Assembly (NCBI GenBank): GCA_902575065.1
Contig: CACGPU010000010.1
Coordinates: 1-49,953, forward strand
From: an uncultured Alphaproteobacteria bacterium
GTDB taxonomy: Bacteria; Pseudomonadota; Alphaproteobacteria; HIMB59
Reading direction: 5' to 3'
DNA: 49,953 bases
Made by a program: the position numbers and the translations under genes
Shown: one piece after another, positions 7,766 to 22,591 of the stretch
Layout: every line of letters starts with the position of its first letter
How positions within the stretch are numbered: position 1 is the stretch's first letter
Notes under the pieces: generated by a model
Databases searched by the model: none
What the model was told of the DNA's origin: nothing
The model's input: only the letters and a program-made list of their open reading frames with translations

Positions 7766-9258
7766 TTTTGATAACCTGATATCAAATAGTCTGCGGACAA
7801 GTTAGAAAATTCAATTATTGGTGTTGAATATATCCCAAAAACAATGATTGAAATTGTAACTATCCATATTGGTAAATAAATATAAGCATCTTCTTTTTCA
7901 GATTTAAATTTAATTTCTGAAAACCACATCTGTTCCACTATTTTCCAGAAATATACAACAGCTAATGCGGAGCTTACAGCAACTAAAGCGATTGAAAAAT
8001 ACATCTGGTTTGTATAAAGAGCTTGAAATAAATATAATTTTGAAATGAAGCCATTTGTTAGAGGTAATCCAATTAAAGATAATCCACAAATTAATAAAGC
8101 AAATGAAGTTATGGGATATTTATAGCCAAAACCTTTTAAACTGTTTAGGGTTACTCGATCCTTATAAAGAATAGCGAAGTAACCAACAGCCATAAATAAT
8201 CCTCCTTTGATCAAAGCATGATTAAATATATGCACAAAGCCCGAAGCTACTCCACTGTGGTCTTTAAGGCTAAAAGCCAGTGTGATGTAACCAATTTGCG
8301 CAATTGAGGAAAATGCCAAAAGTTTTTTGATATCATCTTGATAGATGGCTATTACAGTCCCAATGAATATAGCGAGTAAAGATAGAGGATATAAAACAAA
8401 ATCTAAAAACAAACTTAAATAGCTTGGATAAATTATGAATACTTCGTACAAAAGTCTCACAAAAAAATAAAGAATTGTTTTTGTCGCTAAAGCAGCCAAA
8501 AGTGTTGAGACAGCTGATGGAGCATAACTATATGCAGGTGGTAACCAAATATGGACAGGAAAAATTGCAGCCTTTACCATAAGACCTATAAGCATGAATG
8601 ACATACCTGCGAAGATAGCTAACTGACCATCGGAATATTGGCCCAGTTGAATTACAAGATCATTCATGTTCAACGTACCTGTCATAGCGTAGGCAAAGCC
8701 AACCCCAATTACATAAAATGTAGCCCCGATCGCCCCGATAATTAGATAATTAAAAGCTGCGAGTAATGCTTTTCTATTTTGTCCTGCACCTAAGGCAATT
8801 AAAGAAATAGAAGCTAATGCAGATATTTCTAAAAAGACAAATAAATTGAAAATATCATTAGTTAAAATAATCCCGTTCAGGCTTCCAACTGCCAGTAACC
8901 ACAAAGAATAGGCCTTTCCAGAGTCCCTATAGTCAATTTCATTCAAGAAAATTTTTCTTGAGTAAAATGTTGATACCAAAACAAAAATTGAAAATAACAA
9001 TTGAAGTCCAATATTCACCCCATCTATTTTAAAAGAAATACCCCATGGTGGTTCCCAATTTCCAAACTCATATATAATTAAACCAGAAACAGAAATTTCT
9101 TTAAGAAGATGTAAAGATAAAAATAAATGAAACAACATAGTGATGATTGAAATTATCCAAGGCCATATTTTTGACGGCATAAATGCAATAATTGCAGAAA
9201 TAAGTAGAGGTAAAACTACTACCAATGCAGGAGCATCGTCTAAAAATATATCAAACAT
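7762..9258 (-). CDS. mrpD: Na+/H+ antiporter subunit D
   Basis: A 498-residue polytopic inner-membrane protein of the NuoN/MrpD family. Conserved charges of the ion path are E144 in FVFLEISAL, K229 in LMVKAAIFP, K260 in the following helix and K351 in NHALIKGGL. The FPVHIWLPPAYSYAPSAVSTLLAALATKT segment is the closest of the three paralogues here to standard MrpD. The gene begins immediately after the mrpC stop, the standard C-D order, and overlaps the next paralogue by 4 bases. It exchanges cytoplasmic Na+ for H+ as part of the hetero-oligomeric Mrp complex. Confidence 0.9.
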   Translation of the reverse strand: MFDIFLDDAPALVVVLPLLISAIIAFMPSKIWPWIISIITMLFHLFLSLHLLKEISVSGLIIYEFGNWEPPWGISFKIDGVNIGLQLLFSIFVLVSTFYSRKIFLNEIDYRDSGKAYSLWLLAVGSLNGIILTNDIFNLFVFLEISALASISLIALGAGQNRKALLAAFNYLIIGAIGATFYVIGVGFAYAMTGTLNMNDLVIQLGQYSDGQLAIFAGMSFMLIGLMVKAAIFPVHIWLPPAYSYAPSAVSTLLAALATKTILYFFVRLLYEVFIIYPSYLSLFLDFVLYPLSLLAIFIGTVIAIYQDDIKKLLAFSSIAQIGYITLAFSLKDHSGVASGFVHIFNHALIKGGLFMAVGYFAILYKDRVTLNSLKGFGYKYPITSFALLICGLSLIGLPLTNGFISKLYLFQALYTNQMYFSIALVAVSSALAVVYFWKIVEQMWFSEIKFKSEKEDAYIYLPIWIVTISIIVFGIYSTPIIEFSNLSADYLISGYQN

Positions 9259-9621
9259 TTATTTATCTGACTTTAGCTCCAAAGACTCTATTTCTTTTTC
9301 TTCAATTGTTTCGTAGTTCTTGTAAATTTGTAATACTAAAGCTAATCCAAGCGCTGAAGTAGCCACTCCAACGACGATAGCGGTCAGTATTAAGACGTGC
9401 GGCAATGGATTTGAATAGGCATTTGCCATTTTTGTTAATATAGGGGCGGTTCCATCTAAAACTTTTGCGAGTGATACAAAAAATACAAAAACTGCAGTTT
9501 GAAAAATTGCTAAGCCAACTACTTTTTTTAAATAGTTTTGACTTGTGATGATTATAAATAATCCTCCAACCATAAGTAAAATAAAGGCAAAATGGTTCCA
9601 AAAATAAATAAAATTACTCAT
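9259..9621 (-). CDS. mrpC: Na+/H+ antiporter subunit C (NuoK-like)
   Basis: A 120-residue protein with three hydrophobic helices, homologous to complex I subunit NuoK. The hallmark PLPHVLILTAIVVGVATSALGLAL near residue 72 onward is clear. I chose the ATG at 9621, which gives MSNFIYFW and overlaps the mrpB stop by 8 bases; a TTG at 9660 would add 13 residues not seen in MrpC proteins and would overlap mrpB by 47 bases. The acidic C-terminal tail (EEKEIESLELKSDK) is cytoplasmic. Standard B-C-D gene order is kept around it. Confidence 0.88.
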   Translation of the reverse strand: MSNFIYFWNHFAFILLMVGGLFIIITSQNYLKKVVGLAIFQTAVFVFFVSLAKVLDGTAPILTKMANAYSNPLPHVLILTAIVVGVATSALGLALVLQIYKNYETIEEKEIESLELKSDK

Positions 9622-10051
9622 TAATTTCCCCAAAGGAAGCAAAAGAGTGATACAAAGCAATCATTACAGTTGCAACTGTAATGCCTACTCCTAGCTCAAC
9701 TAATATAATACCAATATGTTGACCAGTTGATGGATCTGATGACAAAACATTGTAATCTAAATACATCCCATCAAGAAATATTGAAACTATTCCGACACCT
9801 GCATATAACAAAACACCTATGCACATTAAATATCGATTGATCATTATTGGAACTAAAGTTTCTCCTTTTGAAAGCCCAAATATCATTGAATACAAAATAA
9901 ATGCTGCCGCTACTATTACCCCAGCCTGAAATCCACCGCCTGGTCCATAGTCACCATGAAATTGAACGTAAAGCCCAAATATAATAATCGGTGCAAAAAG
10001 AATTTTGCTAACAACGCTTAAAACTGGACTAGATGAAATTTTATCTCTCAT
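9614..10051 (-). CDS. mrpB: Na+/H+ antiporter subunit B (MnhB domain)
   Basis: A 145-residue membrane protein with four hydrophobic segments. The loop FHGDYGPGGGFQAGVI is the MnhB signature (HGxxxPGGGFQ), and the second half holds GQHIGIILVELGVGITVATVMIALY, also conserved in MrpB. It overlaps the preceding MrpA-type module gene by 11 bases and the following mrpC by 8, so the three are translated as a coupled set. In the Mrp complex, subunit B sits beside the MrpA C-terminal module and is needed for assembly and transport. Confidence 0.9.
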   Translation of the reverse strand: MRDKISSSPVLSVVSKILFAPIIIFGLYVQFHGDYGPGGGFQAGVIVAAAFILYSMIFGLSKGETLVPIMINRYLMCIGVLLYAGVGIVSIFLDGMYLDYNVLSSDPSTGQHIGIILVELGVGITVATVMIALYHSFASFGEINE

Positions 10052-10610
10052 TTTTTTTATTTTTTTTAAAATTAGTTTTACGATTAAGAGTGTTGCTAGT
10101 TAATAAAGCAATGACACCTAAGCCTGCGGTAAATATTACTATTGTTTCTCCCAAGGTATCAAAACCTCTATAACTTGCTAAAATATTAGTAACAACGTTA
10201 GGTATATGAAAAAAATCTTTACTTTCTTTTAAGTACTCTGGAACTACATGAAGATGTATTGGTGCATTAGGATCTCCTAATAAAGGGAGATTGGCAATTA
10301 TGATAATCAATATAAGTGATATCGCTACTGCTAGGATAATACTTGGAAATAAATTTATTAATTTGTTTTTTTTTCCTTCTGGTAATTTCGCAGCAGCCAT
10401 AACCATTAAAATTGTTGATATACCAGAACCAACGGCTGCTTCAGTAAATGCTACATCAACCGCATCTAGATTTACATAAATAGCTGAGCATAGCAAAGTG
10501 AAAGCTCCTGTAAGAGCAACCACACTTATTAATGACGTGGTTTTAAAAATAAAAAAGGTTGTTACCAATAGAAGGGAAATTAAGAAAAAATTAATTAATA
10601 AAAAGTTCAT
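10041..10610 (-). CDS. MrpA C-terminal module as a separate protein (MbhD/DUF4040 plus MbhE domains)
   Basis: A 189-residue membrane protein made of the two small domains that form the C-terminal end of canonical MrpA. The DUF4040/MbhD part carries DAVDVAFTEAAVGSGISTIL at about 50-69 and the MbhE part carries NVVTNILASYRGFDTLGETIV at about 138-158. The NuoL-like N-terminal region of MrpA is absent; two extra D-type paralogues downstream may supply it. The C-terminus is a basic tail rich in Lys and Asn. It overlaps mrpG by 4 bases and mrpB by 11. This split arrangement recalls the archaeal Mbh/Mrp modules, where MbhD and MbhE are separate proteins. Confidence 0.85.
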   Translation of the reverse strand: MNFLLINFFLISLLLVTTFFIFKTTSLISVVALTGAFTLLCSAIYVNLDAVDVAFTEAAVGSGISTILMVMAAAKLPEGKKNKLINLFPSIILAVAISLILIIIIANLPLLGDPNAPIHLHVVPEYLKESKDFFHIPNVVTNILASYRGFDTLGETIVIFTAGLGVIALLTSNTLNRKTNFKKNKKNER

Positions 10611-10921
10611 TTTTTATTTTTTCCCTTTGGCTTATACCCAGACTCATGTGCAAATAGAGCTATTGCATGGCCTGTTACAGGGCTAGTAAATATTAAAAAT
10701 AACGGTATTAATAAAAGTTTAAGACTTAATAAACTAAAACCTGAATAAACTATTAAAGCCAAGACTATAAAACCTGATCCAAGAGTATCAATTAAACCAG
10801 CAGCATGAATTCGACTAAATACATCGGGTAACTTTATTAGGCCTAGACTTCCTGATAAAATGAAGAAGCAGCCAATAGCTAATAAGATTAAAGAAATCAA
10901 CTCAATATAATTATACGACAT
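10607..10921 (-). CDS. mrpG: Na+/H+ antiporter subunit G
   Basis: A 104-residue membrane protein with three helices. The core FFILSGSLGLIKLPDVFSRIHAAGLIDTLGSGFIVLAL at about 18-55 is the MnhG consensus (GxxRxPDxxxRxHAxxxxxTxG), with the last helix followed by SPVTGHAIALFAHESGYKP. It overlaps mrpF by 11 bases and the MrpA-type module by 4 (stop TGA within ATGA). Subunits E, F and G form the accessory end of the Mrp complex and here precede the module genes, unlike the A-to-G order in Bacillus. Confidence 0.9.
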   Translation of the reverse strand: MSYNYIELISLILLAIGCFFILSGSLGLIKLPDVFSRIHAAGLIDTLGSGFIVLALIVYSGFSLLSLKLLLIPLFLIFTSPVTGHAIALFAHESGYKPKGKNKK

Positions 10922-11180
10922 TACTTTTCTTTCTTTTTATTTTGTAATACCTCAGTATTGCAATGGTGCCTAAAAAATTCAAAAGTATATACATCAAAGA
11001 AATATCGACAAAATCAGGTCTATCGAATGCAAAACCATGAACGCTGATACCAATTGCTATAATAGTTCCAATGCTTGATATAGATAATATTCTATCAAAA
11101 GGAGTTGGTCCTTTGATTGCTCGAACTAAACATAATGCTACAGAGGCGCCCAGAACAATTAACGTTGCAAAAAAAATCAT
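10911..11180 (-). CDS. mrpF: Na+/H+ antiporter subunit F
   Basis: An 89-residue membrane protein with three helices. The MrpF signature LVRAIKGPTPFDRILSISSIGT (about 18-39) and DISLMYILLNFLGTIAILRY (about 58-77) are present, including the conserved Pro-x-x-Asp-Arg and the Asp in the third helix. Its start overlaps the mrpE stop by 4 bases, its stop overlaps mrpG by 11. In related systems MrpF is essential for antiport and for complex stability; bile-salt efflux is a minor reported role of the family. Confidence 0.9.
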   Translation of the reverse strand: MIFFATLIVLGASVALCLVRAIKGPTPFDRILSISSIGTIIAIGISVHGFAFDRPDFVDISLMYILLNFLGTIAILRYYKIKRKKSNVV

Positions 11181-11671
11181 TTATCTAAATCCGTAATTAC
11201 TTTGTTCATATCATCTGTTTGCAAGTCTTCGGAGAGCTTCTTACTTAATGCGTGAACTAGAAATGTTTTTTTATCTACTTCTATTGTTACTGTACCCGGA
11301 GTAAGAGTTATAGCGTTTGCATAGTTTGCAATACCTGTTCTATTCTTCTGAGAAGCTTTAACACTTATTAGTTGAGGAGAGTATTTACCATTCCATATTA
11401 AAGCTGTTGTCGTAATTCCAGATTTAAAAATTTCTTTAAATAACCAAATCCAATAAAATGGTAATCTAAGAATAATTTTTAAAGGAAGAGAGTCTTCCTC
11501 AAGAGCTTTAGCCCTATATGACATCCAAAAAACAAAAAGAACACTGACTAGTCCAAAAAAAAGTAAAAGCGATTTAAGGTAACCAGATAAAATAAACCAG
11601 AATACAAAAAGTATTATGAAATAAGTTATAAATGATAAGGTCTTAAGTGAATCTTTATTAAGTTTAGCCAC
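11177..11671 (-). CDS. mrpE: Na+/H+ antiporter subunit E
   Basis: A 164-residue protein with two N-terminal helices (about 13-60), a third hydrophobic stretch around PFYWIWLFKEIFKSG, and a cytoplasmic C-terminal half containing ANAITLTPGTVTIEVDKKTFLVHAL, the MnhE consensus. It is the first gene of the antiporter operon, yet starts only 9 bases after the stop of the formyltransferase-like gene, so it may be transcribed together with the catabolic cluster upstream; I see no separate promoter in the junction. Length is normal for the family. Confidence 0.89.
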   Translation of the reverse strand: MAKLNKDSLKTLSFITYFIILFVFWFILSGYLKSLLLFFGLVSVLFVFWMSYRAKALEEDSLPLKIILRLPFYWIWLFKEIFKSGITTTALIWNGKYSPQLISVKASQKNRTGIANYANAITLTPGTVTIEVDKKTFLVHALSKKLSEDLQTDDMNKVITDLDK

Positions 11672-11680
11672 TAAAAGCTA

Positions 11681-12598
11681 TTATGAGAATAAATCACCCT
11701 CTGTAAATACTGCAGTATTCATGTCTTTAACAAATAATTTACCTTGGTCTGATTTAAATCTTGATACCTCAATAAATCCACCTTTAACTGCGATTCTGAC
11801 GTTTTCAGCATTAATTGATATGATTTGACCTGGAAAATGCTCAGCACTTTGCTCATCAATAAACTTAGTGTCATAAAAGACATACTCATCACCCATGAAT
11901 TCAGCCCAAGCACCAGGCTGAGGGTTACAACCTCTAATTAAATTATAAATTTCGTTTCCAGGTTTTTTCCAATCAATTCTTGCATCACTTTTTTTACACC
12001 AAGACTCATATGTTGCTTTAGAGTCATCTTGGGGTGTCTTTGGTGCATTGCCAGACTCAATTAAATTTGCAGCTTCAACACAAGCTTCAAGACCTAATGG
12101 AAAAATCTTTTTAAAATAAACATCTCCTAGAGTATCATCAGGACCAATATCAACTTCTTTTTGAAGTAATATTTCGCCCTCATCTAGCCCATCATTTGGA
12201 TAAAAAATTGAAAGACCTGTTTTTGTGGAGCCACCAATTATAGGCCAATTTATTGAACTTGGTCCTCTATGGAGTGGAAGCAGTGAGGGGTGAAAACAAA
12301 TAGATCCATAAGTGGGAATATCTCTTGCTCCTTCAGGTACAAAAATTATTACATAAGCCATGACACATAAATCTGCACCATGAGACTTAATTTGGTCTAG
12401 TACCTCTTGGTCTTTAAAATTTGAGGGTTGGTAAACAGGCAAACTTACACTTTGAGCGTATTCTTTAACAGGATCGACTGGTTTACCCTCTTTGTCAGGC
12501 GCGCAATATACCGCTACTACTTCATGGTCTGTTTCTGTATGAAATTTTTCTAAAGCACTTTTGCCAAATGCCTGTTGCCCCATTAAAATTATTTTCAT
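11681..12598 (-). CDS. Formyltransferase-family protein related to the N-terminal hydrolase domain of 10-formyl-THF dehydrogenase
   Basis: A 305-residue cytoplasmic protein with the formyltransferase fold (about 1-190) and a C-terminal Fmt-type domain (about 200-300). Its closest recognisable relative is the N-terminal domain of eukaryotic ALDH1L1: FHPSLLPLHRG with H103 and NDGLDEGEILLQKE with D139 match H106 and D142 there, and ATYESWCKKSDARIDW continues the similarity. The Asn that precedes the His in methionyl-tRNA formyltransferases is Cys here, as it is non-Asn in ALDH1L1. It therefore probably handles 10-formyl-THF, either hydrolysing it to formate or forming it from a formyl donor. It follows the Frc-like gene by 26 bases with an AAGGAGC ribosome site. 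The exact reaction is inferred. Confidence 0.78.
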   Translation of the reverse strand: MKIILMGQQAFGKSALEKFHTETDHEVVAVYCAPDKEGKPVDPVKEYAQSVSLPVYQPSNFKDQEVLDQIKSHGADLCVMAYVIIFVPEGARDIPTYGSICFHPSLLPLHRGPSSINWPIIGGSTKTGLSIFYPNDGLDEGEILLQKEVDIGPDDTLGDVYFKKIFPLGLEACVEAANLIESGNAPKTPQDDSKATYESWCKKSDARIDWKKPGNEIYNLIRGCNPQPGAWAEFMGDEYVFYDTKFIDEQSAEHFPGQIISINAENVRIAVKGGFIEVSRFKSDQGKLFVKDMNTAVFTEGDLFS

Positions 12599-12624
12599 TA
12601 TTGCTCCTTAAATTAAAATATATC

Positions 12625-13872
12625 TTATACTGCTCCGGCCTCTCTTACAGCTTTAATTTCATCGTCACTCATCTGACAAAATTCTTTTAATATCTCATCA
12701 GTATGCTCTCCGAGAAGCGGAGATCTTTCAACTTTTGCTGGGGAGTCAGATAACTTAATTGGATTACCAACAGTCAAATATTTCCCTCTTTCAGGGTGAT
12801 CGACTTCAACTATAGTATTAGTATCTCTCAGCCCTTGATCTTCAGCTAACTCTTTTAGAGATAATATTGGACCAACTGGTATATCTAGAGGGTTACATAT
12901 ATCCATAACCTCAAATTTAGTCTTGGTCATTGTCCATGACTCAATAGTATCAAATATTTCATTTAACCTTGGTAGTCTTTTAGCAGGAGTTGAGTAATTT
13001 TCATCCTCTTTCCACTCAGGTTTACCAATAACATCACATACTTTTTCCCAAACAGCTGCCTGTGTAATAAAATATGTGTATGCATTTGGATCCTTTTCCC
13101 AACCTTTGCATTTGAGAATTCTTCCTGGCTGACCACCACCTGAGTCATTACCTGCGCGAGGAGTAGAGTCACCAAAAGGAATGTCTTCTCCAAATTGAGA
13201 GTATTCTTTTAAAGGCCCTCTTGAAAGTCTTTGTTGGTCACGAAGTTTTACTCTGCAAAGATTTAAAACTCCATCTTGCATTGCAGCAGATACTCTTTGT
13301 CCCTTTCCTGACTTTTCTCTGTGGAATAAAGCAGTAACTATACCCAATGCTAAATGCAATCCTGTTCCACTATCTCCTATTTGTGCACCAGTGACTAAAG
13401 GAACTTCTCCAAGCATACCTGTTGTTGAAGCAGATCCACCTGCGCACTGAGCAACATTCTCATAAACTTTACAATCTTCATATTTTCCTGGACCAAAGCC
13501 TTTAACAGAAGCATAAATCATTCTTGGATTTATTTCTTGAATTTTTTCCCATGAAAAGCCCATTCTATCTAAAGCACCAGGAGCAAAATTTTCTACCATC
13601 ACATCACACTCTTGAATTAACTTAGTAAATATTTTTGAACCCTCTGGTTTCTTTGGATTTAATGTTATACTTCTCTTATTTGAGTTTAGCATGGTAAAGT
13701 ACAAACTATCTGCATCAGGAACGTCTCTTAGCTGACCTCTTGTGGCATCACCAACTCCTGGTCTTTCAACTTTTACGACATCTGCACCAAACCAAGCTAG
13801 TAATTGTGTGCAAGTTGGTCCGGACTGGACGTGTGTCATGTCTAATATTTTGACACCTTTTAAAGCTTCCAT
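12625..13872 (-). CDS. frc: Formyl-CoA:oxalate CoA-transferase-like protein (CaiB/BaiF class III)
   Basis: A 415-residue class III CoA-transferase, moving CoA between formyl-CoA and a carboxylate such as oxalate via aspartyl intermediates. It follows Oxalobacter Frc closely along its length: [68 protein letters not shown] and the glycine loop [15 protein letters not shown]. The catalytic aspartate is D167 in IGDSGTGLH. One difference, from memory of the family, is Gln at position 47 where Oxalobacter has Trp48 by the active site. Start ATG has an AGGAGG site. It lies 15 bases after the ThDP enzyme gene. Similarity supports Frc well; other acceptor acids remain possible. Confidence 0.87.
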
Positions 13873-13887
13873 GTTTCCTCCTAAGGT

Positions 13888-15564
13888 TTATTTGTACATA
13901 GTCTGGTTTTTTGTACCAGGAGCAAATTCTTCTTTATCCACCCAAATATTTACGATTGCGGGTATACCTGACTTAACAGCGTCTCTGGCTCTTTGAAGTG
14001 CAGGTTGGATTTCTTTTGCTTCTCTAACAGCTTCGCCATGACCACCAAAGATTTTTGCAAACTCATCAAAGTTAACATCACCCAAGATGTTTCCAACATT
14101 TCCTTTATCTTCACCGTATTTCATAATTTGACCAAATCTGATCTGGTTTTGTGCAGAGTTATTTCCAATAACTGTTAAAACAGGGGCTTTGTGTCTGACA
14201 AAAGCCTCGAAGTCCATTCCAGTCATTGAAAAAGCGCCATCACCACAATATAAAAGAATTTCTTTTTCAGGAGCAGCTAATTTGGCTGCAAGCGCGTATG
14301 GCACCCCAACACCTAAAGTTCCAAGAGGCCCTGGGTCCATCCAAGCACCAGGCATTCTAGGTTGAACTGCTTGAGCACTTATGGTTACAACATCTCCTCC
14401 ATCACCTATGTATATAGTATCATCATTTAAAAACTGGTTGAGTTCCCAAGCTACTCTATAAGGGCTAATAGGAGATTTATCTGTTGTAAATGTAGGCATC
14501 AATTTTTCTAAAGCTGCCTCTTCCCCAGATCGAAGTTCATTAAACCAATCTGAACGATCTTTTTTTGTTCCTGCTTCAGAGATAGCCTTTAGAGTTGTTC
14601 CTATGTGTCCAACTAAACCAAGAGATATATCTCTATTTTTTCCAACAGTTCTATAGTCCATATCAATTTGAATAACAGTTGCGTTAGGATTTAATCTTTT
14701 ACCGTAACCCATTCTAAAATCAAAAGGTGTTCCAACAATTATAATACAATCTGACTTGGTAAATGCGTTTCTTCTAGTTCTGTGAAAGTGATGTGGATCT
14801 CCAGGTGGCATTGAACCTCTAGCAGCACCATTTAAATAAGCAGGTATATTCATATTTTTAACAAATCCGATTGCATCCTTTGTAGATTGGCAAGTCCAAA
14901 CCTGTTGACCTAAAAGTATGCACGGTCTCTCAGAGTTAGAAATAATATCAGCAGCTTTTTGTACATCTACAGGGTCTGCTAATGTTTTTGATGAGGCACT
15001 ATATTTTCCTGCTTCTGGTAAAACTGCTTTGCTCATTGGAATTGAAGAGTCAAGTATGTCTCTTGGAATTTCTAAAAATGATGGGCCAAAAGATCCATTT
15101 CTGGTTTCCCTAAAAGCCATTGATACCATGTCTGCACATCTCTCGGTTGACATTACAGTTGCTGCAAATTTTGTAATTGGTTGCATCATGTCTACGTGAG
15201 GTAAATCTTGTAAAGATCCCATTTTATGTTGTGTGAGTGAACTTTGTCCTCCTATTAAAAGCATTGGGATTTCAGCTCTAAAAGCATTTGCTACTCCTGT
15301 TAATGCATGTGTAGTGCCTGGTCCAGCGGTTACAACTGCACACCCAGGTTTACCTGTCATTCTTGCATAACCATCAGCTGCATGAGAGGCAACTTCTTCA
15401 TGACGTACGTCAATAATTTTAATTCCTTCGTTTAGACATCCATTGTAAATATCAATAATGTGTCCCCCACATAAAGTGTAAATAACCTCAACTCCCTCTG
15501 CTTTAAGGGCTTTAGCAACCAGCTCCCCGCCAGTTATCATTTGTTCGTTAGATCCTGTAGACAT
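13888..15564 (-). CDS. ThDP-dependent decarboxylase/lyase of the acetolactate synthase superfamily
   Basis: A 558-residue cytoplasmic enzyme with the three-domain ThDP layout. E56 in VRHEEVASHAADGYAR is the cofactor-activating glutamate, so glyoxylate carboligase (Val there) is excluded. The ThDP/Mg2+ motif runs from GDGAFS (441-446) to NN (468-469). GMGSLQD-like residues at 115-120 recall 2-hydroxyacyl-CoA lyases, but the N-terminal TLCGGHIIDIY and the DPGPLGTLGVG loop differ from canonical oxalyl-CoA decarboxylase. No regulatory subunit gene of acetolactate synthase follows; instead an Frc-like gene does, favouring a CoA-ester substrate that yields formyl-CoA. An AGAGAGG ribosome site lies 6 bases before the ATG, and an inverted repeat lies just upstream. 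Superfamily is firm, substrate open. Confidence 0.82.
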   Translation of the reverse strand: MSTGSNEQMITGGELVAKALKAEGVEVIYTLCGGHIIDIYNGCLNEGIKIIDVRHEEVASHAADGYARMTGKPGCAVVTAGPGTTHALTGVANAFRAEIPMLLIGGQSSLTQHKMGSLQDLPHVDMMQPITKFAATVMSTERCADMVSMAFRETRNGSFGPSFLEIPRDILDSSIPMSKAVLPEAGKYSASSKTLADPVDVQKAADIISNSERPCILLGQQVWTCQSTKDAIGFVKNMNIPAYLNGAARGSMPPGDPHHFHRTRRNAFTKSDCIIIVGTPFDFRMGYGKRLNPNATVIQIDMDYRTVGKNRDISLGLVGHIGTTLKAISEAGTKKDRSDWFNELRSGEEAALEKLMPTFTTDKSPISPYRVAWELNQFLNDDTIYIGDGGDVVTISAQAVQPRMPGAWMDPGPLGTLGVGVPYALAAKLAAPEKEILLYCGDGAFSMTGMDFEAFVRHKAPVLTVIGNNSAQNQIRFGQIMKYGEDKGNVGNILGDVNFDEFAKIFGGHGEAVREAKEIQPALQRARDAVKSGIPAIVNIWVDKEEFAPGTKNQTMYK

Positions 15565-15581
15565 TTTTAACCTCTCTCTGG

Positions 15582-15598
15582 TGGTATAATGTATACCA
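15582..15598. promoter_or_regulatory. Candidate GntR operator, site 1
   Basis: TGGTATAATGTATACCA is a perfect 7-bp inverted repeat around an ATG spacer. It lies 17 bases upstream of the ThDP enzyme start, in the 63-base gap before which the GntR gene ends. A second copy with one changed base per arm lies at 19514-19530. The repeat also sits inside a wider pair of arms, ACCTCTC at 15570-15576 and GAGAGGT at 15603-15609, the first of which overlaps the ribosome site. FCD-type GntR proteins bind short palindromes of TGTATACA type, so assignment to the neighbouring regulator is reasonable but inferred. Confidence 0.68.
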
Positions 15599-15616
15599 GA
15601 TTGAGAGGTCTTGCAA
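15588..15616 (-). promoter_or_regulatory. Possible promoter of the ThDP enzyme-frc genes
   Basis: On the minus strand, TTGCAA (15616-15611) is followed after 17 bases by TACATT (15593-15588), with TATACA as an alternative -10 two bases upstream. The -10 lies inside the inverted repeat, so binding there would block polymerase. Transcription would start near 15581, giving a leader of about 17 bases containing the AGAGAGG site. Weak match to consensus. Confidence 0.4.
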
Positions 15617-15627
15617 AGAAATTTGCC

Positions 15628-16287
15628 TTATGAATTAATGCTTTCTTGTATCTTATCAACTAAAGTAAGTGCGTGATTTTTAAGAAGTTTTTCTGCTTTT
15701 GATCCCTGGCCTGCGACAAGAGATCTAACAATGTCATTGTGTTCATCAATAGATTTTACAGCTCTATGTGACTCTATTACAAATTTTTTCCTCAAGTATT
15801 GTAAATGAATTAACTGTGACTCTAAAATCTCTCCCATTAATTTTACTTTAGTTAATTTCATAATTTGATTATGAAATTTAATATTATCATTTGAGTAGTT
15901 ATCAAGTTCAGACAAGACGTTCTCTTTTGAGTAATGACAATACTTATTTAAACTTTCAATCTCATCTTTAGTAGAATTAGCAATAATTAAATGAGCTGCA
16001 TAACCCTCTAGACCTGCCCACACAGTTACAATATCAATCAATTCTTTTTTTGATTTTCTGTGCACAAATACGCCTCTTCTTGGAACTGTTTTAACAATTC
16101 CCTCTTGCTCTAATTTAGCAACAGCTTCTCGAATAGGTGTCCGACTAACTCCTAGCTTTTCGGACAATTGTCTTTCATCTAGATGAAAATCACTTTGTTT
16201 TAAATATATATTAAGTGACAAAATATATTTTTTTAGTGAATCGTATACCTTACCTTTTAGGTTTACCGGTCCTATTTTTTGGATCAT
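15628..16287 (-). CDS. GntR-family transcriptional regulator, FCD subfamily
   Basis: A 219-residue DNA-binding regulator. The winged helix-turn-helix spans about 11-76 and has LSEKLGVSRTPIREAVAKLEQEGIV followed by the wing RRGVFVHR. The all-helical FCD domain (about 85-210) carries likely metal/ligand residues D134, H139, H183 and H205 in NDNIKFHNQ, IDEHNDIV and LLKNHAL. Such regulators bind small carboxylates and usually repress adjacent catabolic operons. The gene starts immediately after the tctA stop, so it is cotranscribed with the transporter, and it is followed by the operator-bearing gap before the ThDP gene. Its position between uptake and catabolic genes suggests it controls both. 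Confidence 0.9.
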   Translation of the reverse strand: MIQKIGPVNLKGKVYDSLKKYILSLNIYLKQSDFHLDERQLSEKLGVSRTPIREAVAKLEQEGIVKTVPRRGVFVHRKSKKELIDIVTVWAGLEGYAAHLIIANSTKDEIESLNKYCHYSKENVLSELDNYSNDNIKFHNQIMKLTKVKLMGEILESQLIHLQYLRKKFVIESHRAVKSIDEHNDIVRSLVAGQGSKAEKLLKNHALTLVDKIQESINS

Positions 16288-17811
16288 TTATGTAGTCTGT
16301 GCTTTTTTAAAATATTTTCTGTAAAGAGGGCCAAATGCTGGCATAATTAAAAGTACAATTGCAATATACATTATGATTGCAGCAATAGGTTTTTCTGCCA
16401 TATCAAAAAATATTCCCATACTACCATCAGATAAAATTAGAGACTGTCTTAAAGCTTTTTCAGCCAATGGGCCAAGAACAATAGATAAAACAGCTGGTGC
16501 CACAGGGTAATCTAATTTTCTCAAAATGTATCCAGCAAAACCGAATAGCAACATTAACCATACGTCGTGAAGGCTTTGTGTAGGTGCATAACCGCCTGTT
16601 ACACAAAGAACGAAAATTACAGGGGCCAAGATGGCAAATGGTATCCTTAATACCATTAAAAAAGCTGGAATTAACGCAATATTTAAAACTAGTGTAAAGA
16701 AGTTAGCAATGTAAAGACTACCAATTAAGCCCCAAACAAACTCTGGTTCTTGAGTAAATAAAAGAGGACCTGGTGTAAGTCCCCATAGAATCATGCCACC
16801 AAGTAAAATAGCAGTTGTAGGTGATCCTGGAATACCTAATGTTAACATTGGGAGCATACTTCCAGTGCTAGCAGAATTATTTGCACATTCCGGAGCAACA
16901 ACTCCAGCAGGAACACCTGAACCAAATTCTTTTGAATTTTTTGATAATTGTTTTGTAATTCCATATGACATAAGTGATGCCGGTGTGGCACCTGCCGCAG
17001 GGAGAATTCCCACAAAGAAACCTAGAAAAGAACCAATGTTCATTGCCATTATAGTTTTTTTAAGAGCGCCAAATGCTCTTCCAACTTCCTTCATGTTGAC
17101 TGATAATTTTGACATTTGAACTTTACCTTTTGTTTCTTCAAGGGTCCAAAGCATCTCTCCAATTCCATAAATTCCGATAGCAAGTACAAGGAAATTAATT
17201 CCATGAAGAAATCCAGGGATATTAAAGAAAATTAATCTTGGTTTTCCTGTAATTAGATCTAAGCCTATAGTTGATAAAGCTAATCCAATTAATATAGAAA
17301 AAATAGTTTTTGGAACGTCATCTCCTCCTAAGCCTACAAATGTTGCAAAGGCCATTACCATTAATGCAAAGGTTTCAGGAGCATTAAATCTTAGTGCTAC
17401 CTCAGCCAAGGGTGGTGCAAATAAAGTAAATAAAATAACAGATACAGTTCCACCAACGAAGGAACCTACTGCTGCTGCAGTTAAAGCTGTCATAGCTTCT
17501 CCCTTAACAGCTAAGGGTCTTCCATCAAAAACTGTAGCTACTGCAGTAGAAGCTCCAGGTATACCTAGCATGACGGAACTTATGGCACCTCCATACATAG
17601 CGCCGTAATAGACAGCTGCTAAAAATATTATTGCTGCAGTGGGTGGTATAATAAATGTAATTGGAATAAGTATTGCAACACCATTAACTGAACCAAGACC
17701 AGGCATTGCACCCACAAATAACCCAATTAGACAGCCAAATATTAAAAGACCAAGGTTTAAGGGTTCAAAGGATACAAAAATTCCCTCTAGAAGAAGTATA
17801 AATACATCCAT
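16288..17811 (-). CDS. tctA: Tripartite tricarboxylate transporter, large membrane subunit TctA
   Basis: A 507-residue inner-membrane protein with about twelve helices. The duplicated family motif is present: GAMPGLGSVNGVAILIP with YYGAMYGGAISSVMLGIPGA near the N-terminus, and GILPAAGATPASL with LTLGIPGSPTTAILLGGM in the second half. It forms the ion-coupled channel of a TTT uptake system, receiving substrate from TctC. It lies 28 bases after tctB and abuts gntR. Substrates of TTT systems include citrate, tartrate, terephthalate and other carboxylates; here the downstream Frc-like gene makes a short dicarboxylate or hydroxy acid plausible. Confidence 0.93.
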   Translation of the reverse strand: MDVFILLLEGIFVSFEPLNLGLLIFGCLIGLFVGAMPGLGSVNGVAILIPITFIIPPTAAIIFLAAVYYGAMYGGAISSVMLGIPGASTAVATVFDGRPLAVKGEAMTALTAAAVGSFVGGTVSVILFTLFAPPLAEVALRFNAPETFALMVMAFATFVGLGGDDVPKTIFSILIGLALSTIGLDLITGKPRLIFFNIPGFLHGINFLVLAIGIYGIGEMLWTLEETKGKVQMSKLSVNMKEVGRAFGALKKTIMAMNIGSFLGFFVGILPAAGATPASLMSYGITKQLSKNSKEFGSGVPAGVVAPECANNSASTGSMLPMLTLGIPGSPTTAILLGGMILWGLTPGPLLFTQEPEFVWGLIGSLYIANFFTLVLNIALIPAFLMVLRIPFAILAPVIFVLCVTGGYAPTQSLHDVWLMLLFGFAGYILRKLDYPVAPAVLSIVLGPLAEKALRQSLILSDGSMGIFFDMAEKPIAAIIMYIAIVLLIMPAFGPLYRKYFKKAQTT

Positions 17812-17839
17812 CTTTTATGTCTTTACTTAACCAATCTCA

Positions 17840-18364
17840 TTATGAATACATAAAATCGTATACTGGATAAAATAAGGGCTCTGAAATACCTTGAGGTAAA
17901 GGTATTTTTAAAAGCCATTCAAAAAATAAAAAGGTTAAAACTGGTGTGATTAAAGAGAATACAGATATAAATAGGATACTTTTAGAACTAAAATATCTAA
18001 GATAAAAAGCTAAAAAAAAGATGAGTGAAAAGTAAATTCCCAAATAGCCTATTGCTAAAACTAAAATAACTAATGAAATAATTGTTACTGCAATATATTT
18101 GAATGCTTCAGCCTCAATAAAAGGTGAGTCATCTTTAGATTGTGGTGACCTTTTTAGAACGAATTTAATTATGGTAAGGACAGTACAAATAAGCATGCCA
18201 AGAGAAAGGTAAAAAGGAAGAAATCCCGCACCCATGTTTTCTTCTGCGTTCCATGTAATTCTATTCTCAGCACTTTTAATCATCAGAGCGATTGAGCATA
18301 ACGCTAAAATAACGGCCACTGCAATTTCTGCTCTTTTGACAGTTATTTTGTTTGTTATGCTCAT
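17840..18364 (-). CDS. tctB: Tripartite tricarboxylate transporter, small membrane subunit TctB
   Basis: A 174-residue inner-membrane protein with four hydrophobic segments, starting RAEIAVAVILALCSIALMIK, with the family's ENMGAGFLPFYLSLGMLICTVLTII segment at about 40-64 and a C-terminal helix ending WLLKIPLPQGI. TctB proteins are poorly conserved, and it is recognised by this topology, by the GAGFLPFYL motif and by its position between tctC and tctA. It starts 19 bases after the tctC stop. It is required with TctA for transport. Confidence 0.88.
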   Translation of the reverse strand: MSITNKITVKRAEIAVAVILALCSIALMIKSAENRITWNAEENMGAGFLPFYLSLGMLICTVLTIIKFVLKRSPQSKDDSPFIEAEAFKYIAVTIISLVILVLAIGYLGIYFSLIFFLAFYLRYFSSKSILFISVFSLITPVLTFLFFEWLLKIPLPQGISEPLFYPVYDFMYS

Positions 18365-18383
18365 ATCACTCTTAATTTAAATA

Positions 18384-19361
18384 TTAGTTAAAGTTTTTAA
18401 TGATCTCACCGTGCTTAGCATATTCGATTGCTAAGAAATCTTTAAGACCAAAACCCTCTAACCAGCTCATTAACTTTCCATCGTCGATGTTGAAAGTTTG
18501 GAACTCGTTATCATGATAAACAGTGTGAAGAAGTCCTGTGTAGTACTTCTCTACCTCTGCATCAATACCAGCTGGAGCCATAAATGCTCTCATCATATAG
18601 TATTCAAGATCAGGATAACCTAATTCATATGAAGATGGTACATCTGGGAATGCAGGATTTCTCTCAGGAGTCATCATAACTAATGCTTTTGAGTCACCTG
18701 ATTGATAGAATCCCATCTGCTCAGAAGGGTTGTTTAATGTGAAATCTGACTCGCCGCCAACTAGACCTTTTGCAACAGCACCACCGCCGTCATATGGTAC
18801 GTACTTTGCATCAAATCCAAACTGACCTCTCATCATACCAAGAAGTAATTCGTCTTCTGACATACTTCCTGTACCACCCATTACTAGACCATTGCCTTTA
18901 GCAAGTGCGATGAAGTCATCAAATGTTTCTACACCTTGAGTATTTTTACCTTCAGTTGCAATCCACACTAAGAATGTATCTGTAATAAGTCTTGCTAATG
19001 GTGTGAAGTCATTAAAGAAGTCAATTCCTAACTCAGGCTGGTTAACAGGTGTAGTTAGAACATTGTTAAGAGTAATGATAAGTGTGTGCTCATCACCAGC
19101 TTTTTTCTTAACATAAGTCATAGCTTCACCACCAGAACCACCTTTTTTATTAATTGGAATCACTGGCTTAGATGCGTAATCGTTTTTCTCGATAACACCT
19201 TGAACTAATCTAGCAATTTCGTCAGCTCCACCACCTTGACCAGCTGGGATAATAAGCTCAATAGGCTTCTTCGGACTAAAAGGCTTCGCAGAAGACACTG
19301 AACTAACAGCGACAAGTGAAAGTGAAACAATAACTAATGCTAATTTTTTGATTATTGACAT
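18384..19361 (-). CDS. tctC: Tripartite tricarboxylate transporter, periplasmic binding protein TctC
   Basis: A 325-residue Bug-family solute receptor. Residues 1-25 form a Sec signal peptide with probable cleavage after VSSVSSA. The mature protein begins PFSPKKPIELIIPAGQGGGADEIAR, the canonical ligand-binding entry, and has DFTPLARL, YVPYDGGGAVAKGLVGG and the C-terminal lobe expected. Codons look more G/C-rich than in neighbouring genes, as is common for highly expressed receptors. A strong AGGAGGA ribosome site (19374-19368) lies 6 bases before the ATG. It is first in its operon, with a leader of up to 150 bases that begins at the second inverted repeat. Ligand cannot be read from sequence. 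Confidence 0.94.
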   Translation of the reverse strand: MSIIKKLALVIVSLSLVAVSSVSSAKPFSPKKPIELIIPAGQGGGADEIARLVQGVIEKNDYASKPVIPINKKGGSGGEAMTYVKKKAGDEHTLIITLNNVLTTPVNQPELGIDFFNDFTPLARLITDTFLVWIATEGKNTQGVETFDDFIALAKGNGLVMGGTGSMSEDELLLGMMRGQFGFDAKYVPYDGGGAVAKGLVGGESDFTLNNPSEQMGFYQSGDSKALVMMTPERNPAFPDVPSSYELGYPDLEYYMMRAFMAPAGIDAEVEKYYTGLLHTVYHDNEFQTFNIDDGKLMSWLEGFGLKDFLAIEYAKHGEIIKNFN

Positions 19362-19513: not shown

Positions 19514-19530
19514 TTGTATAATGTATACAA
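19514..19530. promoter_or_regulatory. Candidate GntR operator, site 2, in the tctC/quinone reductase divergent region
   Basis: TTGTATAATGTATACAA is a perfect 7-bp inverted repeat with the same ATG spacer as the site at 15582-15598; 15 of 17 bases agree, and the two differences are symmetric (G to T on one arm, C to A on the other). It contains TATAAT in the plus direction and TATACA/TTATAC elements in the minus direction, so it can overlap -10 elements of both divergent genes. Its right half is the palindrome TGTATACA typical of FCD-GntR operators. Control of tctCBA-gntR, and perhaps of the quinone reductase-sucCD genes, is inferred. Confidence 0.68.
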
Positions 19531-19549
19531 AATACCACAGGCAGTTAAA

Positions 19550-20524
19550 TTGAAGTTTATAAATTATAAAGATGGAAGTTTGTTTCTAGATGAAAAAGAG
19601 ATCGCTGACCCTCTTGATGAACAAATCCAAATTGAAATTCATTTCGCTGGAATAAATAGAGCAGATATTCTCCAAAAAAACGGACATTATCCACCACCCT
19701 CAGGTGAGAGTGAAATTATTGGATTAGAGTGTTCCGGAATAGTTACCAAATTAGGAAAGTCAGCAAAAAACTTTAGTTTAGGAGACCAAGTTTGTGCAAT
19801 TCTTGGAGGTGGTGGATATGCGGAGTACGTAAATGTTAATGAAAAACAAGTAATGCCATTACCAAAAAATTTAAATTTACATGAAGCTGGCTGCTTACCA
19901 GAAACTACACTCACTGTTTTTGAGAATATTTTCAATGTATCTAAATTTCAAAGAGATGAGGCGATTTTGATACATGGTGGAAGTAGTGGTATCGGCACAA
20001 CTGCTATTTCAATTCTTAAAAATTATACAAAAAATATTTTTGTAACAGCTGGTACGAGTGGAAAATGTAAGAGTTGTATCGAATTAGGAGCCACTGATGC
20101 TATTAACTACAAAGATAGAGATTTTGAAGAATATTTTAATCAGAAAAAATTAAAGGTTGATGTAATATTAGATATGGTTGGAGGAGATTACTTAAAAAAA
20201 AATTTGAAAATATTAAACTTTAAAGGAAGACTTACTTATATTGCTGCTCTCGGTGGGATTAAAGCAGAAACTAATCTTTTACATATAATGAATAAACAAT
20301 TAAAAATATCTGGATCAACATTAAGATCAAGATCTCCATATGAAAAGGGAAATATTGTTGATCAGGTTGTCAAAGAAATATGGCCTTTGATAGAGAATGA
20401 TAAATATAAACCAACAATTTTTGAAACTTTTAATATGAGTGAAGTAAATAAAGCACATGAGGTTATGGAAAAATCTGACCATATAGGAAAAATAGTTTTA
20501 AGTATAAAAGGAGAAAAAAAATGA
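19550..20524 (+). CDS. Zinc-free NAD(P)H quinone oxidoreductase, PIG3/QOR type
   Basis: A medium-chain dehydrogenase of 324 residues with this start. [18 protein letters not shown] is the PIG3-type substrate-side motif, [13 protein letters not shown] is the NADPH-binding turn, and [13 protein letters not shown] is a further PIG3 hallmark; the zinc-binding cysteines of alcohol dehydrogenases are missing. I chose the TTG at 19550 because an AGG ribosome site precedes it by 8 bases and because the longer frame from the TTG at 19514 would start inside the inverted repeat; neither start is an ATG. Its stop overlaps the sucC start by 4 bases. Probably a detoxifying one-electron quinone reductase. 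Confidence 0.82.
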
Positions 20525-21708
20525 ATCTACACGAATACCAAGCGAAAATATTATTAAAAAATAATAACGTTAGAGTTTTAAATGGCTACCCAGTATTAGA
20601 TGATAGCGATATAGAAACTGCTGTAGACTCTATCCAGACACCAGTTATGGTTGTGAAGTCTCAAATTCATGCAGGTGGAAGAGGCGCGGGAAAATTTACA
20701 GATAGTGGTGATGACAAAGGCGGTGTGAGAGTTTGCTTCTCAAAAGATGAAGCCAAAGACAATGCAAAAAAAATGTTTGGAAAAACTTTAGTTACAAAAC
20801 AAACTGGTCCAAGTGGAAAACAGGTAAATAGACTTTATATTGAGGAAGGGTGCGATATCAAAAAAGAATACTATCTAAGTATGCTCGTGGATAGAGCGAC
20901 ATCTTCAATTTCAATTATAGCATCTACTGAGGGTGGCATGGAAATTGAGGAAGTAGCAGAAAAGCAACCTGAAAAAATTATTACTGTTAATGTCCCTGGG
21001 GACAGTGCTATTGACCAAAATAGTTTAAATAAATTAACTGAGGGTTTAAAGATAGATCAAAACCTATCAAATGATTTTTGTGATCAAATTCAAAAAATTT
21101 ACAATAGCTTTTTATCCTCAGATGCCTCTTTAGTAGAAGTTAATCCTTTTGTATTGACTGGTGAGGGTAATTTTTTGGCTTTAGATGCAAAGGTATCGAT
21201 AGATGATAATGCGCTTTATAAACATAAAGATGTAGCTTCAATGAGAGATGAAACTGAAGAGGATCCTGCAGAGATTGAGGCTTCAAAACATGAGCTTAAC
21301 TACGTCAAATTAGATGGTCAAATTGGATGCATGGTAAATGGAGCTGGTCTCGCAATGGGGACAATGGATATAATTAAATTACATGGTGGTAGTCCTGCAA
21401 ATTTTTTAGATGTAGGAGGAGGAGCTACAAAAGAGAGAGTAGCAAAAGCCTTTTCTATAATTCTGCAAGATCCAAATGTAAAAGCTATTTTGGTAAATAT
21501 TTTTGGAGGTATTATGAAATGTGACATTATCGCTGAGGGTGTGGTAGCTGCAGCTAAAGAGCTGTCTATTCAAGTTCCATTGGTAGTTAGACTAGAAGGA
21601 ACCAATGTTGACTTAGGCAAAGAAATTTTAAATAAATCTGGGCTCTCAATTATTTCGGCAGATAATTTAGAGGATGCAGCTCAAAAGGCAGTTAAGGCTT
21701 TAAACTAA
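20521..21708 (+). CDS. sucC: Succinate-CoA ligase, beta subunit
   Basis: A 395-residue subunit with an N-terminal ATP-grasp domain ([27 protein letters not shown] at about 46-59) and a C-terminal CoA-ligase domain ([50 protein letters not shown]). With SucD it makes succinate and nucleotide triphosphate from succinyl-CoA in the TCA cycle, reversibly. Malate-CoA ligase subunits are close relatives, but no serine-cycle partners such as malyl-CoA lyase are nearby. The start overlaps the quinone reductase stop by 4 bases, giving an unusual operon away from mdh and sucAB. Confidence 0.92.
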
Positions 21709-21718
21709 AGGAGAAATT

Positions 21719-22591
21719 ATGTCAGTATTAATTAATAAAAACACAAAAGTTATTTGCCAGGGTTTTACTGGTTCTCAAGGTACATTTCACTCAGAACAAG
21801 CTATAAAATATGGAACTCAAATGGTTGGTGGAGTGACACCAAAGAAAGGTGGTCAAGAGCATTTAGGACTTCCTGTGTTTAATAGTGTTAAAGAGGCAAA
21901 AGACAATACAGATGCAAATGCAACTGTAATATACGTTCCACCTCCTTTTGCAGCTGGTGCTATAATTGAAGCGATTGATGCAGATATGGAACTTATTGTT
22001 TGTATAACTGAAGGAGTTCCGGTTCTTGATATGATGCAAGTAAAAAGAAAATTGGAAAAATCAAAATCGCGTTTAATTGGACCCAACTGCCCCGGAATAA
22101 TTACACCTGACGAATGTAAAATAGGCATAATGCCAGGTCATATTCACCAAAAAGGAAAAATAGGAGTTGTTAGTAGATCTGGGACACTGACATATGAAGC
22201 AGTAGCACAAACTTCTGCTGTAGGTCTGGGTCAATCGACTTGTATTGGTATTGGGGGGGATCCTATTAACGGAACAAACTTTATAGATTGCCTTGATCTT
22301 TTTTTAAAAGATCCCGAAACTGAAGGTATCATAATGATCGGAGAGATTGGAGGAACTGCTGAAGAAGAAGCTGCGGAATTTATTAAAAAATCTGAAATTA
22401 AAAAACCAGTTGCCTCTTTTATAGCTGGTGCTAGTGCTCCTGCTGGAAAAAGAATGGGTCATGCAGGTGCTATTATTTCTGGTGGAAAAGGCACTGCAGA
22501 GTCAAAGTTTAGTGCTTTAGAAGAAGCAGGAGTTCATATATCCAAATCACCAGCTAAGCTAGGTGAGACAATCAAAGAAGCTTTAAACTAA
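21719..22591 (+). CDS. sucD: Succinate-CoA ligase, alpha subunit
   Basis: A 290-residue subunit carrying the CoA-binding Rossmann domain ([17 protein letters not shown] at 13-29) and the phosphohistidine domain. H248 in [10 protein letters not shown] is the phosphorylated histidine and E209 in [13 protein letters not shown] supports it; [10 protein letters not shown] and [12 protein letters not shown] are conserved. A GGAG site precedes the ATG, 10 bases after sucC. Its TAA shares bases with the TAG of the converging ketopantoate-reductase-like gene in the tetranucleotide CTAA. Confidence 0.94.

Follow-up and report, generated by a model that had tools for sequence, protein, structure and literature searches.

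A conserved seven-gene cluster and its promoter palindrome

We analysed a 49,953-nucleotide stretch of DNA from an uncultured alphaproteobacterium of the HIMB59 lineage (hereafter the window; GenBank assembly GCA_902575065.1, contig CACGPU010000010.1, positions 1 to 49,953), which is contig C10 of a 1.25-Mb genome that is 85% complete. Seven consecutive minus-strand open reading frames (ORFs) at 11681-19361 form the run tctCBA-gntR-ThDP-frc-formyltransferase, with intergenic gaps of 26, 15, 63, 0, 28 and 19 bp from low to high coordinates. Pfam and NCBIfam profile models, applied at their curated cut-offs, confirmed the families that a first-pass annotation had assigned to these ORFs. A complete tripartite tricarboxylate transporter (TTT) is encoded by the periplasmic receptor TctC (18384-19361, PF03401), a candidate oxalate receptor, the small membrane subunit TctB (17840-18364, PF07331) and the large membrane subunit TctA (16288-17811, PF01970). 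They are followed by a GntR/FCD regulator (15628-16287, PF00392 and PF07729), a thiamine diphosphate (ThDP)-dependent enzyme, P0003 (13888-15564, PF02776/PF00205/PF02775), which we propose to be a non-canonical oxalyl-CoA decarboxylase (OXC), the formyl-CoA:oxalate CoA-transferase Frc (12625-13872, CoA_transf_3), and P0001 (11681-12598, PF00551 and PF02911, that is Formyl_trans_N and C), a formyltransferase resembling the hydrolase domain of 10-formyl-tetrahydrofolate (10-formyl-THF) dehydrogenase.

The seven-gene set is real and conserved far beyond chance. Conservation in relatives had been named as a check by the first-pass annotation, and all seven genes recur in 16 of 17 genus loci examined, the remaining one (L080) being cut by a contig end. 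Seven loci from other lineages also keep the full set and its order, at 26-75% identity (L051-L054, L084, L086, L097); in L051 the ThDP gene and frc are about 5 kb apart, with other genes between them. The genus relatives are labelled as uncultured Alphaproteobacteria assemblies, with one Pelagibacteraceae, and include a single-contig genome of 1,410,127 bases. The ThDP protein was matched at E<=1e-60 in 42 of the 52 genus genomes (three of these matches are partial or split), including, at 89-99% identity, all ten with a completeness of 90% or more; the ten genomes lacking a match are 50-79% complete. In one genome (G007:C3:125665-127337) the ThDP gene is split into overlapping halves, and one in-frame TGA lies in the second; this reflects either an assembly error or a broken gene.

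Beyond the genus, matches above this threshold in the rest of the order all fall in one sister family, at 29-31% identity. A class-wide draw of 289 genomes contained the ThDP protein at 62% identity or higher in 14, three of them from the genus, and relatives at 34-42% identity in seven more. A scan of named genomes for the enzyme returned at least 588 confirmed stretches, the best 80 of which include metagenome-assembled genomes labelled Gammaproteobacteria, Nitrospira, Acidobacteria, Longimicrobiales and Kiloniellaceae as well as many Actinomycetes, among them Streptomyces, Kibdelosporangium, Kribbella and Nonomuraea. We counted neighbours at 84 non-genus loci that carry the enzyme; 69 have full flanks, of which 50 are actinobacterial and mutually related and 19 are not. 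At 83 of the 84 loci the first matched gene to follow the ThDP gene on its strand is frc, and at the other the contig ends 35 bases on; the distance is within 3 kb at 82 loci. TctC is 32-44% identical in other cluster loci, and a GntR homologue (34-44% identity) precedes the decarboxylase gene where one is carried there. Three loci (L062-L064, with copies L044, L045 and L046) encode ThDP proteins 41-42% identical to P0003 in which GNDAAWGQM replaces GNNSxxNQIR; other cluster genes were not matched within their fetched flanks.

Two promoter regions of the cluster share an exact palindrome. The pattern GTATANNNTATAC matches the window exactly twice, against 0.01 expected, both times as GTATAATGTATAC: at 15584-15596, between gntR and the ThDP gene and thus before the latter, and at 19516-19528, before tctC and between it and the divergent quinone-oxidoreductase-like and sucCD genes. 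At least two sites are present in 15 of 15 genus loci examined. Among 19 distant loci examined, ten carry a total of 12 sites, compared with a mean of 0.025 and a maximum of 1 in 40 dinucleotide shuffles of the same loci. Eight of these 12 sites lie 43-96 bp before the gntR start and two at 220 and 272 bp, and the remaining two are about 280-320 bp before tctC. A looser search (15-mer, two mismatches) gave six matches against 5.19 expected, so only the exact pattern is informative. We take GTATANNNTATAC to be a candidate operator of the cluster's GntR family.

The CoA-transferase and its neighbourhoods point to oxalate

The substrate of the cluster is most likely oxalate and not a 2-hydroxy acid, as indicated by four lines of evidence: the Frc model, neighbouring OxlT genes, mutual exclusion with canonical OXC, and the plasmid pLA6_002. 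Frc passes the oxalate-specific model TIGR03253 (oxalate_frc) with 693.9 bits at a cut-off of 504.2, and its best match in the Protein Data Bank (PDB) is E. coli YfdW. Section 3.2 of PMC10192776 names Q17, D169 and the glycine loop G259/G260 as Frc family residues; the corresponding Q16, D167 and GGGQPG loop (G245-G247; numbering mapped by hand) are invariant in 13 aligned rows.

The strongest of the four lines is pLA6_002, a plasmid of a marine member of the Paracoccaceae (Rhodobacterales; locus L214). It carries the whole cluster, TctCBA included, with a canonical OXC in the ThDP slot (TIGR03254, 937 bits, cut-off 739.4), in the order sucDC / GntR - canonical OXC - Frc - P0001-like - formate-THF ligase (FTHFS) - Usp - TctC - TctB - TctA. 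Identities to the window are 78% for Frc, 51% for the P0001-like protein, 44% for TctC, 33% for TctB and 66% for TctA; the arrangement differs in that tctCBA follows the enzyme genes on the plasmid and precedes them in the window. Paracoccus alcaliphilus has the related order sucDC / GntR - canonical oxc - frc. The known frc-oxc operons (E. coli frc-oxc; Cupriavidus necator frc-oxc, with apbA2 nearby) likewise share the transferase family and a decarboxylase gene adjoining frc, but in the window the decarboxylase slot holds a protein that falls outside the OXC models and lacks the OXC active-site set.

The two enzymes also exclude each other across genomes. Frc exceeds its cut-off in 24 of the 289 genomes of the class-wide draw, ten of which have a canonical OXC and 13 the ThDP enzyme, and none has both. 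The one genome with neither above threshold (G398) could possibly represent a third solution or an assembly gap. Among the 31 genomes with the cluster, none has a canonical OXC over the cut-off, and one contains a weaker relative (533.9 bits). The model of the oxalate/formate antiporter OxlT (611-673 bits, cut-off 335) recognises genes near the ThDP-frc pair at five of 27 non-actinobacterial loci: adjoining it in two alphaproteobacteria (L055, L057) and a Phyllobacterium (L171), and no more than 8 kb away in Cupriavidus metallidurans and Caballeronia (L170, L172). L055 reads OxlT-GntR-ThDP-Frc-GCL-Hyi-GlxR-KPR, where KPR is a ketopantoate-reductase homologue. Streptomyces and Kribbella loci carry only a distant OFA-type transporter, below the OxlT cut-off. 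Two Kribbella genomes contain the ThDP enzyme, and a canonical OXC over the cut-off was not found in them; this fits the oxalate use in Kribbella that Robertson and Meyers reportedly studied in 2022.

A ThDP enzyme in the place of oxalyl-CoA decarboxylase

In a tree of 47 rows, the 27 rows of the P0003 family fall into a single clade (100/100); the nine canonical OXC rows lie outside it and cluster with the HACL/S enzymes (HACL, 2-hydroxyacyl-CoA lyase). P0003 is about 26-27% identical to canonical OXC, and its family is marked by the motifs LQDLPHV, NNSxxNQIR and a C-terminal PGTxxQTMY. In the structural comparison with VIA-align, the top 20 matches by Z are all OXC or HACL/S, that is CoA-dependent ThDP enzymes. 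A biosynthetic acetolactate synthase, which the first-pass annotation had held to be fatal to its proposal, was rejected as a candidate, with scores below the cut-offs of TIGR00118 (310.8 of 538.35) and PRK05858 (484.4 of 587); a separate acetolactate-synthase-like gene, 29% identical to the ThDP protein, lies at G000:C7.

We put a probability of roughly 80% on the reading that the cluster is an oxalate-utilisation regulon and that its ThDP protein represents a second, non-canonical oxalyl-CoA decarboxylase family. Judged from gene context, the protein is most likely isofunctional with canonical OXC and achieves this with another residue set; the alternative is that the context misleads and that the enzyme is a lyase.

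Several results weigh against this assignment. The ThDP protein fails both canonical OXC models (TIGR03254, 243.7 of 739.4; NF006721, 254.1 of 557). At OXC positions Y120, E121 and Y483 (O. formigenes numbering, as is E56 below, from section 3.2 of PMC10192776), nine of nine canonical rows have Tyr, Glu and Tyr; in the P0003 family Leu, Gln and Asn occupy these sites without exception (27 of 27 rows). The OXC residue E56 is Glu in all 47 rows and is unspecific for OXC, because GCL and HACL rows have it as well. According to an excerpt of PMC7190790, alanine at each of the Y120/E121/Y483 positions leaves the Mycobacterium mageritense OXC with about 10% activity; the portion of PMC8411744 available to us reports less than 0.2% for the MeOXC variant E135G, A415C, Y497F, S568G, in which two changes lie at the Tyr/Glu/Tyr sites and two at further sites. 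Both the best PDB sequence match (264 bits) and the first Foldseek hit of the ThDP protein are the 2-hydroxyacyl-CoA lyase AcHACL, which VIA-align ranks only 43rd. TTT and OxlT never occur together (0 of 69 full-flank loci), and therefore the oxalate link of the TTT form comes mainly from pLA6_002; moreover, the palindrome GTATANNNTATAC was not found in the pLA6_002 or P. alcaliphilus loci. Streptomyces loci have an aldehyde dehydrogenase nearby, which could fit an aldehyde-producing lyase. Finally, the PanE2-type and BhcA-type roles proposed below for two neighbouring genes draw on family resemblance only.

One rival is a 2-hydroxy-acid pathway, in which the Frc-like transferase would activate a 2-hydroxy acid and a ThDP lyase would cleave it to an aldehyde or ketone and formyl-CoA. 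The first-pass annotation had tentatively suggested such a substrate, and we considered it first because AcHACL (7pt1-4) is the nearest solved relative, and set it aside after inspecting the gene neighbourhoods. AcHACL shares the Leu, Gln and Asn of the three active-site positions with the ThDP protein, and the aldehyde dehydrogenase near the Streptomyces clusters would suit its chemistry, but the protein stays under the cut-off of the actinobacterial-type HACL model NF058623 (350.6 of 600), and the position of AcHACL Glu493 (a wild-type residue deduced from the titles of PDB mutant entries) is Ile475, invariant in two alignments. Together with an Frc that belongs to the oxalate equivalog, the canonical OXC that takes the enzyme's place in the syntenic pLA6_002 cluster, the OxlT neighbours and the mutual exclusion with canonical OXC, this makes the 2-hydroxy-acid pathway unlikely and the earlier suggestion most likely wrong. 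Still less probable is a cluster that handles oxalate with the ThDP enzyme as a carboligase, which might couple a one-carbon unit from oxalyl- or formyl-CoA to an aldehyde such as glyoxylate, formyl-CoA being made otherwise. The enzyme does lack residues that, when altered in MeOXC, shifted the reaction from releasing formyl-CoA towards carboligation (PMC8411744, same portion), and glyoxylate-pathway genes adjoin some copies of its gene; yet it stands where canonical OXC would stand, and the 31 cluster genomes, none with a canonical OXC over the cut-off, would be left with no OXC of the known family to supply Frc with formyl-CoA. That the neighbourhood reflects chance or housekeeping genes held together by genome streamlining strikes us as very improbable: the genes downstream of the cluster vary inside the genus and SucC follows the order's own phylogeny, but the gene order is common to distant loci at 26-75% identity and the palindrome is shared.

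A stand-alone folate enzyme and a possible supply of formyl-CoA

The first-pass annotation held that the last protein of the cluster joins formyl or formate to folate. This is imprecise, since the genome encodes a formate-THF ligase of its own; P0001 is a folate enzyme whose nearest relative is the hydrolase domain of 10-formyl-THF dehydrogenase (best PDB match, 4qpd). The His106/Ser108/Asp142 triad that the accessible text of PMC6802093 names for this domain corresponds, mapped by hand, to H103, S105 and D139 of P0001, which are invariant in seven rows. The methionyl-tRNA formyltransferase model TIGR00460 failed on P0001 (159.3 of 201.5). By length, the Formyl_trans_N hits in the eight searched genus genomes of at least 90% completeness correspond to Fmt, PurN and P0001, except for a fragment of 53 residues in G019; P0001 is distinct from the Fmt-sized and PurN-sized proteins.

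As described in PMC6802093 (same text), the hydrolase domain of 10-formyl-THF dehydrogenase hands a formyl group on to the thiol of phosphopantetheine. Its authors propose that the related HypX N-terminal domain transfers formyl to CoA, for which they say direct results are unavailable. P0001 is homologous in sequence to both the hydrolase domain, whose triad it keeps, and the HypX/HoxX N-terminal domain, but it stands alone, with no dehydrogenase or decarbonylase domain, and sits with frc. P0001 may exchange formyl groups between folate and CoA, in either direction, and FTHFS and P0001 together could make formyl-CoA from formate and ATP. For E. coli, the sections available of PMC3720670 propose that the oxalate loop is primed, in the absence of formyl-CoA, by YfdE, an acetyl-CoA:oxalate CoA-transferase. 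In the window's genome, which is 85% complete, frc itself is the only class III CoA-transferase (CoA_transf_3) gene found; therefore, priming may come from elsewhere.

Elsewhere, an ADP-forming acyl-CoA ligase gene follows frc. P0001 homologues (8) and this ligase (55) never co-occur in the 69 full-flank loci. Among the 19 non-actinobacterial ones, P0001 is present at eight, seven of them with TTT, and the ligase at five, four of them with OxlT; we regard this split as a pattern, not as proof.

A serious competitor, to which we give somewhat less than even odds, is that P0001 is a plain 10-formyl-THF hydrolase that replaces PurU, releases formate and free folate and takes no part in CoA chemistry, a reading otherwise compatible with an oxalate cluster. 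Its homology to the hydrolase domain agrees with this, as does the lack of any left-over PurU-sized Formyl_trans_N hit in the eight genomes. A plain hydrolase would, however, be futile beside formate-THF ligase, and a P0001 homologue adjoins that gene in L052-L054, L086, L097, L105, L144 and pLA6_002, which counts against it; so does the separation of P0001 from the acyl-CoA ligase, with the reservation that 50 of the 69 loci are related actinobacterial ones.

A proposed oxalate pathway and the fate of its products

We propose the following sequence of events. TctCBA would import oxalate, and Frc, on family-level evidence, would load oxalate with the CoA of formyl-CoA, so that oxalyl-CoA forms and formate is released. 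The ThDP enzyme would then convert oxalyl-CoA to formyl-CoA and CO2, as its context suggests, making the loop catalytic in formyl-CoA. Two routes would be open to the formate, oxidation by a formate dehydrogenase of the Fds type and attachment to folate by formate-THF ligase; we found genes for both. Part of the oxalyl-CoA may be reduced to glyoxylate by a ketopantoate-reductase homologue and then aminated to glycine. Each oxalate reduced in this way costs one CoA thioester, and therefore the formyl-CoA pool needs refilling; P0001 could do so with formyl taken from 10-formyl-THF and passed on to CoA, or it could work in reverse, and SucCD is another possible source of CoA thioester. Two promoters are probably under the control of the GntR protein, which would act at the GTATANNNTATAC sites. 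The uptake, regulation, CoA activation, catalytic formyl-CoA loop and folate enzyme foreseen by the first-pass annotation are in this way supported.

Formate-THF ligase was found in all nine genus genomes searched. A full-length FdsA relative (65-67% identity) is present in seven of these nine, and was not found in the window's own assembly or in G044. In the 69 full-flank loci, the flanks contain FTHFS at 5, FdsA at 6, FdsB at 6, GCL at 3 and KPR at 27; such formate and glyoxylate genes count in favour of the oxalate reading.

The two promoter palindromes, the ketopantoate-reductase homologue and an aminotransferase (22588-24726) plausibly belong to the system too. The reductase homologue P0008 (22588-23565, minus strand; NF005089, 454.2 bits, cut-off 223) is a proposed oxalyl-CoA reductase of the PanE2/ApbA2 type. 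A homologue near ThDP-frc in C. metallidurans is 53% identical to it and falls in the same subfamily (533, cut-off 223), whose title is 2-dehydropantoate 2-reductase. In the excerpted text of PMC7486775, C. necator ApbA2, encoded near frc-oxc, is 51% identical to M. extorquens PanE2; deletion of apbA2 lengthened the doubling time on oxalate from 6.5 to 10 h, and deletion of frc-oxc abolished growth on oxalate. PanE2 is characterised as an oxalyl-CoA reductase in the portion of PMC8411744 used here. Because of these roles of ApbA2 and PanE2, and of the subfamily shared with the C. metallidurans homologue, P0008 may convert oxalyl-CoA to glyoxylate. The adjoining class V aminotransferase (23566-24726, minus strand), which we propose to turn glyoxylate into glycine, is BhcA-like, with 573.1 bits against the cut-off of 650 of NF045640 (aspartate-glyoxylate aminotransferase BhcA), which it fails. 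This gene adjoins the KPR gene in six of six genus loci examined; as part of a wider system it was dropped, having no match in non-genus loci.

SucC (succinyl-CoA ligase beta; 20521-21708, plus strand; NF001913, 546.1 bits, cut-off 370) and SucD (alpha; 21719-22591, plus strand; NF004230, 485.1 bits, cut-off 336) are associated with the cluster. We considered a dedicated ligase displacing the tricarboxylic acid cycle enzyme, as identities suggested, and rejected it as unsupported by the SucC tree, which places the SucC of the window together with that of the sister family (99/97), a family whose matches to the ThDP protein are only about 30% identical. SucC is the only copy in eight of nine genus genomes searched; G008 and G009 are recorded with two. 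Malate-CoA ligase was rejected as well (NF010647, 472.9 of 604). We retain recurrent adjacency alone as the link between SucCD and the cluster.

Occurrence and implications

The first-pass annotation was aware of no description of this gene set in streamlined marine bacteria, and the literature searched, which misses most subscription journals, agrees: it yielded neither a link of oxalate with HIMB59 nor a text combining oxalate, formyl-CoA transferase and 'thiamine pyrophosphate-binding protein'. In PMC10308909, which deals with the HIMB59 clade, neither 'formyl' nor 'oxalate' occurs in the main text. Such negatives do not prove novelty. The part of PMC10192776 consulted describes marine oxalotrophy through oxc with canonical residues, and the survey of 1,396 OXC sequences in PMC7190790 (excerpt) found that, with identity cut off at 50%, they form one closed similarity network and have an active site in common. 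Eight close plasmid copies of the ThDP gene are either labelled 'thiamine pyrophosphate-binding protein' (three) or have no annotated feature (five).

If our assignment is correct, oxalate degraders are undercounted, given how little P0003 resembles canonical OXC (about 26-27%), and oxalate use extends to a streamlined ocean lineage; a group related to it reached up to 6% in the South Pacific Gyre (PMC11366302). An oxalate-importing TTT transporter would be suggested too. The enzyme standing in for the usual oxalate decarboxylase would then be common to an ocean lineage and unrelated bacteria, including soil Streptomyces, and one-carbon chemistry could make use of a naturally occurring ThDP enzyme that acts on oxalyl-CoA through a different active site. 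The arrangement further suggests a way in which the formyl-CoA pool stays charged where no YfdE-type priming transferase is found. The full combination, an independently evolved second OXC family without Tyr-Glu-Tyr that ranges from ocean plankton to Streptomyces, plus a proteobacterial loop charged by a stand-alone folate-to-CoA formyltransferase, is a more tentative proposal, which we hold to be a little less probable than an even chance.

Neighbouring genes and further observations

Divergent from tctC, an NADPH:quinone-oxidoreductase-like gene, named from the ORF reading alone, occupies 19514-20524 (plus strand) with a doubtful start codon. Its listed TTG start (19514) overlaps the palindrome at 19516-19528, and similarity starts only at residues 4-11 in five of six genus loci; for both reasons the true start may be further in. 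Matches of 36-40% occur near a few other loci. Nine bp downstream of the cluster lie minus-strand genes (6314-11671) that, judging from their ORFs, resemble an Mrp/Mnh Na+/H+ antiporter operon. Same-sized ORFs follow the cluster in G001, G044 and G046, and different ones in G002, G008 and G009.

Distant loci have neighbours of their own. An Ancylobacter plasmid (L216:7995-10659) carries two tandem frc genes, with neither canonical OXC nor the ThDP enzyme in the fetched stretch. A phosphoenolpyruvate carboxylase gene lies beyond sucDC in Phyllobacterium (L171:1-2205) and on pLA6_002 (L214:1-2707). At L090:14414-19543, a ferredoxin-oxidoreductase-like set (POR_N, PFOR_II, TPP_enzyme_C, Fer4_21 and Pyr_redox_2 by Pfam on L090) follows the cluster, and members of the same gene clusters lie between the ThDP gene and frc at L051:10763-15694; this set could oxidise oxalate or a 2-oxo acid. 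After two actinobacterial copies of the cluster (L088:15193-16683 and L103:15167-16720) stands an Nramp divalent-metal transporter gene (NF037982, 465-469 bits, cut-off 50), as if to take up metal freed from metal oxalates.

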